Source: Amycolatopsis solani (lineage in GTDB: Bacteria; Actinomycetota; Actinomycetes; Mycobacteriales; Pseudonocardiaceae). From it: a DNA stretch of 64,000 nt. Numbering within the stretch: the stretch's first letter is position 1; each line of letters opens with the position of its first letter. The notes beneath the pieces are model-generated. The model was not told where the DNA came from, did not search any database, and saw nothing but the letters and a program-made list of their open reading frames with translations. This document shows, in pieces, positions 3,769 through 4,140 of this stretch. Both the position numbers and the translations under genes were made by a program. The stretch is from the NCBI RefSeq assembly GCF_033441515.1, contig NZ_JAWQJT010000001.1:3906001-3970000 (forward strand). The letters run 5' to 3'.

Positions 3769-4140
3769 TCAGGCGGCGAGCGCGTAGTCGCTCTGGCAGG
3801 TGACGCGCGTGCCCATGGTGACGCGCGTGCCACGGGTGACCCGCGTGCCGCGCGTGACGCGGGTGCCGCAGGTGACTCGCGTGCCGGCCGTCACACGAGT
3901 GCCCATCGTGACGCGAGTGCCGCGGGTGACTCGCGTACCCCGCGTGACGCGCGTCCCCGCCGTCACCCGGGTGCCCGCCGTGACGCGGGTTCCGGCCGTG
4001 ACGCGTGTACCGCGAGTGACGCGTGTACCGCGGGTAACCCTTGTGCCCGCCGTCACACGTGTTCCGGGCACGAAGTCGATGTCGCTCAGTGACGAGAAGG
4101 TCTCGGTGATCGCCTGTGCGGGGGTGTGGACGCTGTTCAT
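3769..4140 (-). CDS. Hexapeptide-repeat protein (15 x GTRVTx)
   Basis: 123-residue protein of unknown function. Residues 1-25 are a non-repetitive leader (MNSVHTPAQAITETFSSLSD, then IDFVP). Residues 26-115 are fifteen uninterrupted copies of Gly-Thr-Arg-Val-Thr-x, where x is Ala, Arg, Met or Cys. Residues 116-123 are the tail QSDYALAA. There are no signal peptide and no membrane segment, and the protein is strongly basic. AGGAGG seven bases before the ATG at 4140 shows it is translated. The third codon positions differ widely between repeats while the five amino acids never change; repeat copy 14 on the DNA even uses AGG for Arg instead of CGN. This argues for selection on the protein. V-x-x-G-T-x repeats in multiples of 18 residues fit a left-handed beta-helix (15 x 6 = five coils). 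A multi-core peptide precursor is the alternative, but no modifying enzyme lies nearby. Confidence 0.88.
   Translation of the reverse strand: MNSVHTPAQAITETFSSLSDIDFVPGTRVTAGTRVTRGTRVTRGTRVTAGTRVTAGTRVTAGTRVTRGTRVTRGTRVTMGTRVTAGTRVTCGTRVTRGTRVTRGTRVTMGTRVTCQSDYALAA
3800..4069 (-). repeat. 15 tandem 18-bp units inside the GTRVTx gene
   Basis: Fifteen contiguous 18-bp units with the plus-strand pattern GTnACnCGnGTnCCnnnn. They have no spacers and run exactly from 3800 to 4069. Variation is concentrated at codon wobble positions of the minus-strand reading frame. This is a coding tandem repeat, not a CRISPR. Confidence 0.95.

Follow-up and report, generated by a model that had tools for sequence, protein, structure and literature searches.

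In the genome of Amycolatopsis solani (Pseudonocardiaceae; RefSeq assembly GCF_033441515.1), a stretch of 64,000 nucleotides was analysed (contig NZ_JAWQJT010000001.1, positions 3,906,001 to 3,970,000, here called the window and numbered from its first letter), in which an open reading frame (ORF) on the minus strand, positions 3769-4140, encodes 123 amino acids including fifteen copies of the pentapeptide GTRVT. The locus raises the question of what such an array is for: whether its copies build a fold, are displayed to a partner, or are released as peptides. Our answer is that this ORF, hereafter the array gene, belongs to a family found next to the same neighbours in most sampled genera of the Pseudonocardiaceae, that its copies appear to be maintained as peptide and not as DNA, and that its product is most likely, if tentatively, a precursor that carries many copies of a short recognition peptide centred on Arg and is handed over to Clp-type proteolysis.

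The array gene and its distribution

The predicted protein is composed of a 25-residue leader, MNSVHTPAQAITETFSSLSDIDFVP (4066-4140), of the array proper, made of fifteen exact GTRVTx units (3796-4065) in which x is, in order, A, R, R, A, A, A, R, R, M, A, C, R, R, M and C, and of an 8-residue tail, QSDYALAA (3772-3795), all on the minus strand and exactly as the initial annotation, made from the bare sequence, had read them. The ATG is preceded, after a 7-base spacer, by the Shine-Dalgarno sequence AGGAGG (4148-4153, minus strand). That this ORF is a real gene is confirmed by sequence comparison within the genus and across the family; a chance origin is excluded because the same gene is present in all of the 35 Amycolatopsis genomes searched. 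It should be noted that another ORF, with VTRVPx repeats, overlaps the array gene on the plus strand (3800-4678). This frame is open across the array because GGN ACN CGN GTN ACN is nearly self-complementary, with the wobble sites in register. The minus frame was taken as the gene because the leader, the tail and the start region are conserved in that frame, and because AGR codons, which encode 202 of the 2491 motif Arg residues counted in the family, keep Arg only there. Gene callers may miss the array gene or call the VTRVPx ORF in its place.

The HNH gene next to the array, used as an anchor, was found in 197 of 200 sampled Pseudonocardiaceae genomes. With loci taken from part of the genomes and duplicates removed, the array was found adjoining conserved housekeeping neighbours in 39 of the 46 sampled genera, giving 158 unevenly spread genes (39 come from Amycolatopsis, and many genera contribute a single gene). 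The copy number per gene ranges from 2 to 51, and homologues with other repeat numbers therefore exist; the conserved housekeeping block in which the initial annotation had placed the gene is likewise borne out, since the same neighbours are present in other genomes of the family. Leaders differ strongly between genera and are partly conserved among close relatives. Duplicate loci were counted once (L031, L039-L042, L071, L090, L091 and L122-L124 were left out, and L038 stands for L026), L187, L231 and G103 of the family set gave no usable region, and L043-L047 are loci from a search for transfer-messenger RNA (tmRNA). Loci without an array were scored as absent. Genera are designated by internal codes (g-numbers); g30 is called Lentzea, and part of g43 Saccharothrix, after the names of database proteins.

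No array was found at the loci examined in seven of the 46 genera, namely g25 (nine loci), g26 (four), g27 (one), g50 (one), g58 (two), g59 (two) and g64 (five). In most of these loci the gap between the HNH and CtaJ genes is 39-176 bp (for loci fetched later, the HNH end was assumed at base 50), while four g64 and two g25 loci hold about 1.5 kb there with no array; the g27 locus, where the HNH match is merely 55% and CtaJ was not seen, may be the wrong locus. In a tree built from the neighbouring proteins, g61 is joined by g26, g50 and g58 within the GTRVT clade (support 0.94-1.00), which suggests that the latter three genera have lost the array; several deep supports of that tree are low, and its rooting is unreliable, with the outgroup family f8 falling inside the family.

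Order- and phylum-wide searches with the GTRVT protein (E 1e-10), by which other motifs would be missed, gave no convincing orthologue outside the Pseudonocardiaceae. They returned G260, G404, G427, G535 and G734, with 39-64% identity, of which the loci of G260 and G734 were fetched. The non-syntenic matches L087 and L088 were rejected as orthologues, the conserved neighbours being missing; L087 (from G734) has at about 4000-4300 an almost exact 18-bp minisatellite reading TGTRVP, with none of the neighbours, and is probably unrelated. The HNH locus was also inspected in 28 genomes outside the family, in 27 of which the HNH protein was matched, and yielded one candidate, L129 (1259-1396, in a genome of another family), an ORF beside the HNH gene with three RGVRVG copies in differing synonymous codons, which may be an older or deeper relative. 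A Kibdelosporangium-type locus was met in a record titled Rhodococcus rhodnii (L271, JOAA01000003.1), which is probably mislabelled. A search of 5.8 billion predicted proteins (7992 candidates scored) gave one truncated relative, P0001, and two chance-like matches; as protein-set searches scored only the best 8000 or so candidates, absence there is weak evidence. No second GTRVT array was found in this genome. A phage origin was rejected: phage and plasmid records held no relative of the array types tried, and the one match in viral contigs, at 28%, looks unrelated; among defence and phage families, four array proteins had no PADLOC match and weak PHROG matches to unknown or tail families. Nothing on a Pseudonocardiaceae array family was found in the open-access PMC literature.

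Pentapeptide, tail and start region

Each genome has one dominant pentapeptide, in near-perfect copies, and this pentapeptide differs between genera within the general form [GS][TVI]R[VI]x. GTRVT is found in 16 genera (101 genes), GVRIS in nine (16 genes) and SVRIT in five (25 genes); GTRIT (three genes), GVRVT (two) and GVRIH (two) are found in two genera each, GVRVN (two genes) and GIRVN (four) in one genus each, and GVRIE, GIRVT and GVRIN in one gene of one genus each. The genus counts total 41, with g41 and g42 each containing two motifs (in g42, GTRVT in one genome and GVRVT in all copies but one of another). All motifs have a central Arg, partly by construction, since arrays were tabulated on the basis of two or more [TVIAL]R[VIAL] pentamers; an unbiased 4-mer count, covering 30 genera, likewise detects Arg in their arrays. 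The motif follows phylogeny: when absence is treated as a state, it changes 16 times on a 59-locus tree, against 31.1 times when shuffled (minimum 26). Most GTRVT genes have linkers of one residue between pentapeptides; in the SVRIT genera and most of the GVRIS ones the linkers are mostly of 3-4 residues, in Actinokineospora they range from 1 to at least 13, and in other genera they reach at least 35. In the same SVRIT and GVRIS genera the motif mostly recurs every 8-9 residues, in g45 every 7, and in Actinokineospora at mixed distances. What is conserved as a unit is the pentapeptide and not the hexapeptide.

The fifteen GTRVT copies of the window occur in 14 distinct DNA forms, differing on average at 3.1 of five wobble sites, and Tandem Repeats Finder detects the DNA array at 71-76% matches only. 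Over the whole family 2491 exact copies were counted. A non-overlapping scan admitting imperfect copies gave 2450 exact and 115 imperfect ones; over these 2565 copies, the proportions of synonymous (pS) and nonsynonymous (pN) differences were 0.50 and 0.043, with a pN/pS of 0.086, far from 1 even with pN inflated by Arg and Ser codon-family switches. Because the Ser of SVRIT (347 TCN, 55 AGY) and that of GVRIS (209 AGY, 66 TCN) use both codon families, it is the residue rather than the codon that is kept. As the wobble sites are highly diverged and the peptide constant, selection on the peptide is indicated, and the copies are, on this codon evidence, held identical as peptide and not as DNA. 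The initial annotation had come to the same view from the diverged wobble positions and an AGG-for-CGN switch in the window, and the family-wide counts agree with it.

The tmRNA of this genome encodes the tag ADSSQREYALAA, with which the tail QSDYALAA shares six of the last eight residues. In Amycolatopsis, 37 of the 39 genes end in LAA, mostly preceded by an acidic-aromatic pattern. In the family, an AA or AG end is found in 95 of the 158 genes (LAA or LAG in 71), and in 19 of the 39 genera the majority of genes carry an AA or AG end; ssrA-like tails are also present in genera with other motifs (ARQNDFSLAA, ARRDELALAA, GRSEYALAA). Many array proteins have the C-terminal LAA or AA of ClpXP substrates (C-motif 1, or ssrA-like degron), and the degron thus predicted is common, not universal, in the family.

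A near-invariant box, TTTTTCACCTGTACGGGCCTTGC (4193-4215, minus strand), covers the presumed transcription start and early transcribed region of the array gene. A presumed -10 hexamer, TAGCTT (4214-4219, minus strand), stands at the consensus position, with a presumed -35, TTGTCG (4237-4242, minus strand), 17 bases from it. Across the family, the box TTTTCACCTGTACGGGYCTTGC is found upstream of 154 of the 158 genes, in 37 of the 39 genera, with 17 of 22 positions 93-100% identical, some of which the pattern used for the search required. In most cases a TA[GC]NTT-like hexamer starts 6-9 bases before the CACC of the box, and CTTG[TC] stands 31-33 bases ahead of the same CACC. Strict sigma-70 and terminator scans found nothing, nor did they report the presumed -35; the region 3700-4500 gave no Rfam match at E up to 1, and this genome holds no second copy of the box at up to 3 mismatches. 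The box looks like a promoter with a start region that is itself constrained, as an operator or an early RNA element would be.

As regards the neighbours, the array gene is convergent with the HNH gene (3128-3682, plus strand; profile search), whose protein shows sub-threshold similarity to the HNH domains of IscB and Cas9d. On the other side, a gene for a CtaJ-like cytochrome-oxidase subunit (4419-4673; NF050118, 97 bits against a cut-off of 43) is divergent from the array gene and pairs with a DUF5130/TPM gene (4660-5148), also divergent. Globin, MscS and Rv2466c-like genes are further members of the flanks, and the gene running from about 7800 down to 5261, which is presumably PepN, holds the same place in other genomes. 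Elsewhere, an intergenic repeat of 42 bp that contains the imperfect hairpin AACTTTCCCTACGAAAGT occurs twice at 8611-8700 and nowhere else in the window.

Release, display or fold

In the explanation that we tentatively prefer, the array gene would encode a short polyprotein, for the most part unfolded, in which the functional element is a single pentapeptide (GTRVT in the window) present in many copies. A promoter with a near-invariant start region would transcribe it and a good ribosome site would have it translated; the ssrA-like or Ala-Ala tail, present in about half the genera, would deliver the protein to ClpX/ClpP; fragments holding an intact pentapeptide would be released, any cutting phase being suitable in so repetitive an array; and a lineage-specific receptor or transporter would recognise the pentapeptide. 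Such lineage-specific recognition would account for copies that stay identical within a genome and a motif that shifts slowly between genera. A copy number of 2-51 and free linkers are also features of multi-copy precursors.

The same pentapeptides are met in secreted-looking proteins. Seven small proteins (P0018, P0021, P0022, P0023, P0025, P0027 and P0028, two of them named Kribbella) have four or five SVRIT copies directly after a signal-peptide-like N-terminus, and a metagenome-assembled genome labelled Aeromicrobium (L311, 1656-3611) has two adjacent genes with GTRVT twelve and five times after N-termini of this kind, both proteins having a C-terminal domain after the array, with a weak beta/gamma-crystallin match in one; the ORFs beside them are presumably FHA-domain genes. 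These signal peptides were judged by eye and, for two of them, by hydropathy: the best 15-residue mean in the first 45 residues was 2.1-2.6 in P0021 and L311, against a maximum of 1.6 over the 39 genera of Pseudonocardiaceae. A simple hydropathy scan of the window leader likewise found no signal-peptide-like hydrophobic stretch. Since identical pentapeptides occur in otherwise unlike cytosolic-looking and secreted-looking proteins, recognition of the pentapeptide itself is favoured, and some other Actinobacteria would make the same peptides by an ordinary secreted route. A Lentzea-type query also retrieved the metagenomic proteins P0005, P0008 and P0010, which differ in their leader (STDW motif) and have SVRIT arrays with YAA or LAA at the end; these and P0014, P0016, P0017 and P0019, all metagenomic or database proteins, have a short leader, mostly with STDW or TTDW, and 2-6 SVRIT units, and NR[DE][FYL] often recurs in them as a second motif.

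A number of observations weigh against release of the peptides. No array was found in seven of 46 sampled genera, and hence it is not indispensable; 63 of the 158 genes lack an AA or AG end (C-termini were counted in array genes only); a crude hydropathy scan over 39 genera found no signal peptide in the Pseudonocardiaceae proteins; no cleavage motif flanking the pentapeptides is common to all genera; and no exporter, protease or receptor was found among the neighbours, which are housekeeping genes, none being sought beyond them. The arrays are less pure in some genera represented by one genome (6 of 11 Arg-centred pentamers in g28, 6 of 10 in g31 and 10 of 17 in g65). The secreted-looking cases are few and mostly database proteins without genomic context, and the secreted type was not found in 336 actinobacterial genomes (no positive control) or in a further search of 345, some sampled before, in which the class-wide search with this type gave marginal matches in ten genomes (E 0.001-0.007), none of them an array. 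Moreover, the L311 arrays stand before a further domain and the x residue of hexamer-type genes is periodic (see below), both of which fit display or structure better than release. The proposal in its full extent, i.e. that most Pseudonocardiaceae have one core gene with 2-51 copies of a genus-specific Arg-centred pentapeptide and no secretion signal, processed by ClpP through mimicry of the tmRNA tag, that certain other actinobacteria export these pentapeptides by the Sec route, and that the whole is an unreported bacterial peptide language, we regard as unlikely.

Close behind in probability, doubtful but to be taken seriously, is multivalent display, in which an uncut, short-lived sponge or scaffold would bind a conserved partner through many linear motifs and the degron would set its lifetime. 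The lack of a visible signal peptide and the ssrA-like tail suit it, as do a motif that hardly varies from copy to copy and is consistent within lineages, linkers whose length and charge vary freely, a trait of disordered multivalent proteins, and the low-confidence models obtained for both GTRVT and SVRIT types. However, a copy number of 2 to 51 shows no clear constraint, the pentapeptides after signal-peptide-like N-termini would need an extracellular partner too, and no partner has been identified. Much less probable is a multi-core precursor of a ribosomally synthesized and post-translationally modified peptide (RiPP), in which an enzyme would modify Arg or its beta-branched neighbours in each core. 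The resemblance noted in the initial annotation, a leader followed by repeated cores, is genuine and includes an Arg in every motif and a leader partly conserved among close relatives, but leaders are strongly different between genera, and no modifying enzyme is present among the profiled neighbours (globin, MscS, HNH, CtaJ-like, DUF5130 and Rv2466c-like; a distant enzyme was not sought). We give least credence, and very little, to the idea that the selected product is RNA or DNA, or that the array is an unselected minisatellite. The box of about 20 bp and the DNA array are conserved, and the GTRVT DNA repeat is near-palindromic; on the other side stand the strongly diverged wobble sites with a fixed peptide, the lack of an Rfam match, SVRIT and GVRIS codons that are not palindromic like those of GTRVT, and a Shine-Dalgarno sequence with ATG in nearly all loci, though start codons were picked by Shine-Dalgarno match.

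The initial annotation had suggested a left-handed beta-helix, with three hexapeptides to an 18-residue coil; we consider a beta-solenoid of this kind, acting through an ordered surface of T and R, improbable, less so than a RiPP precursor. V-x-x-G-T-x fits the hexapeptide rule of these helices, and part of the claim gained support. In pure-hexamer GTRVT genes, x is identical three units away in 0.50 of cases against 0.33 when shuffled (58 distinct series; a value this high came up in 0 of 1000 shuffles), or 0.45 against 0.29 with one gene for each of 13 genera; three units are 18 residues, as a three-sided coil would predict. Since wobble identity showed no consistent rise at this lag in five genes checked, the 18-residue unit may matter in this branch. 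AlphaFold places short strands at six-residue intervals in the window protein, at low confidence (pLDDT 65.3, pTM 0.59; other models 41-49 pLDDT), with no Foldseek match below E 0.04 and middling Z scores to assorted solenoids, and matches to hexapeptide acyltransferases are far below cut-offs (13-21 bits against 160-441). Across the orthologues, however, the six-residue spacing is not retained, and a model of an SVRIT-type protein is no solenoid (pLDDT 53, pTM 0.33, six sequences). Charge is no better kept: the window protein has a net +17 in 123 residues, and a Lentzea-type one -10 in 170, the mean linker charge of Lentzea-type arrays being -1.44; other SVRIT genes are near neutral or basic, the g51 one basic. 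Linkers so variable in length and charge argue against a family-wide beta-helix and a common basic Arg face. A polyanion-binding Arg face was rejected for the family, several SVRIT arrays being acidic or near neutral, and binding to nucleic acids, ice or envelope polyanions, proposed with the basic face, found no evidence in its support.

The multi-copy precursor remains our preferred reading. Whichever applies, a syntenic gene across most of a large antibiotic-producing family, with strong selection on its peptide and a near-invariant box, is covered by no family model, and the protein set searched yielded few relatives of it. Amycolatopsis and its relatives produce vancomycin- and rifamycin-type drugs. 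The motif switches (GTRVT, SVRIT, GVRIS and so on) supply a ready-made specificity code through which a receptor could be found. If the peptides are signals, they would open up peptide communication in these organisms; if not, the array is an unusual case of pentapeptide copies kept identical without identical DNA, and one that makes natural use of a tail resembling the tmRNA tag.

Comparison with known systems

The array protein is, on the families tested, categorically new as a protein family and stands outside all of them, because membership of the hexapeptide-helix, RRNPPA and RiPP groups each fails on a defining feature that was tested. No model of Pfam or NCBIfam matches the window protein above cut-off, in agreement with the initial annotation; its weak matches are to hexapeptide and collagen-like repeats, far under the cut-offs. 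The Lentzea protein P0004, named DUF2345 (PF10106) by NCBI, scores 51 bits against a cut-off of 30.7, mostly on its SVRIT repeats; four other array proteins give 13-23 bits, and the window protein no match. With the hexapeptide left-handed beta-helix proteins (LpxD, DapD and CysE type), GTRVTx genes share a similar spacing of G, T and V and weak profile matches; unlike them, the array scores far under the curated cut-offs, and the spacing is not kept in other genera.

The Phr pentapeptide SRNVT resembles the array motif. Excerpts of PMC9765709 describe RRNPPA propeptides (Phr, NprX and AimP type) with up to six copies of one mature peptide, to which the array gene is similar in its short linear peptides, sometimes in multiple copies. 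Unlike these, it belongs to a different phylum, has far more copies and shows no signal peptide of the Sec type by hydropathy, and no adjacent TPR receptor gene was found among the profiled neighbours.

An unidentified oligopeptide signal is known in Streptomyces. A link to BldK was dropped, no Streptomyces being among the best 80 of 98 named relatives. In the same genus, excerpts of PMC7142297 and PMC9775585 indicate that degradation of sigma-AntA by ClpXP requires a C-terminal Ala-Ala, which is also implicated for ClgR and Lon. The natural Clp substrates PopR, ClgR and sigma-AntA (PMC9775585, PMC7142297) share with the array protein this C-terminal AA, which in the latter is part of a longer ssrA-like tail; they are transcription regulators with folded domains, unlike the array protein.

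If the precursor reading is correct, the array gene would work like multi-copy pheromone precursors. The yeast MFalpha1 precursor is secreted and processed at defined sites. In the excerpted text of PMC5850478, its repeat number differs between close isolates, and the array gene shares with it several identical copies of a short peptide in one ORF and a copy number variable among close relatives. Unlike MFalpha1, the Pseudonocardiaceae gene shows no signal peptide and no shared cleavage site, and is built on a pentapeptide unit in up to 51 copies, often followed by an ssrA-like tail.
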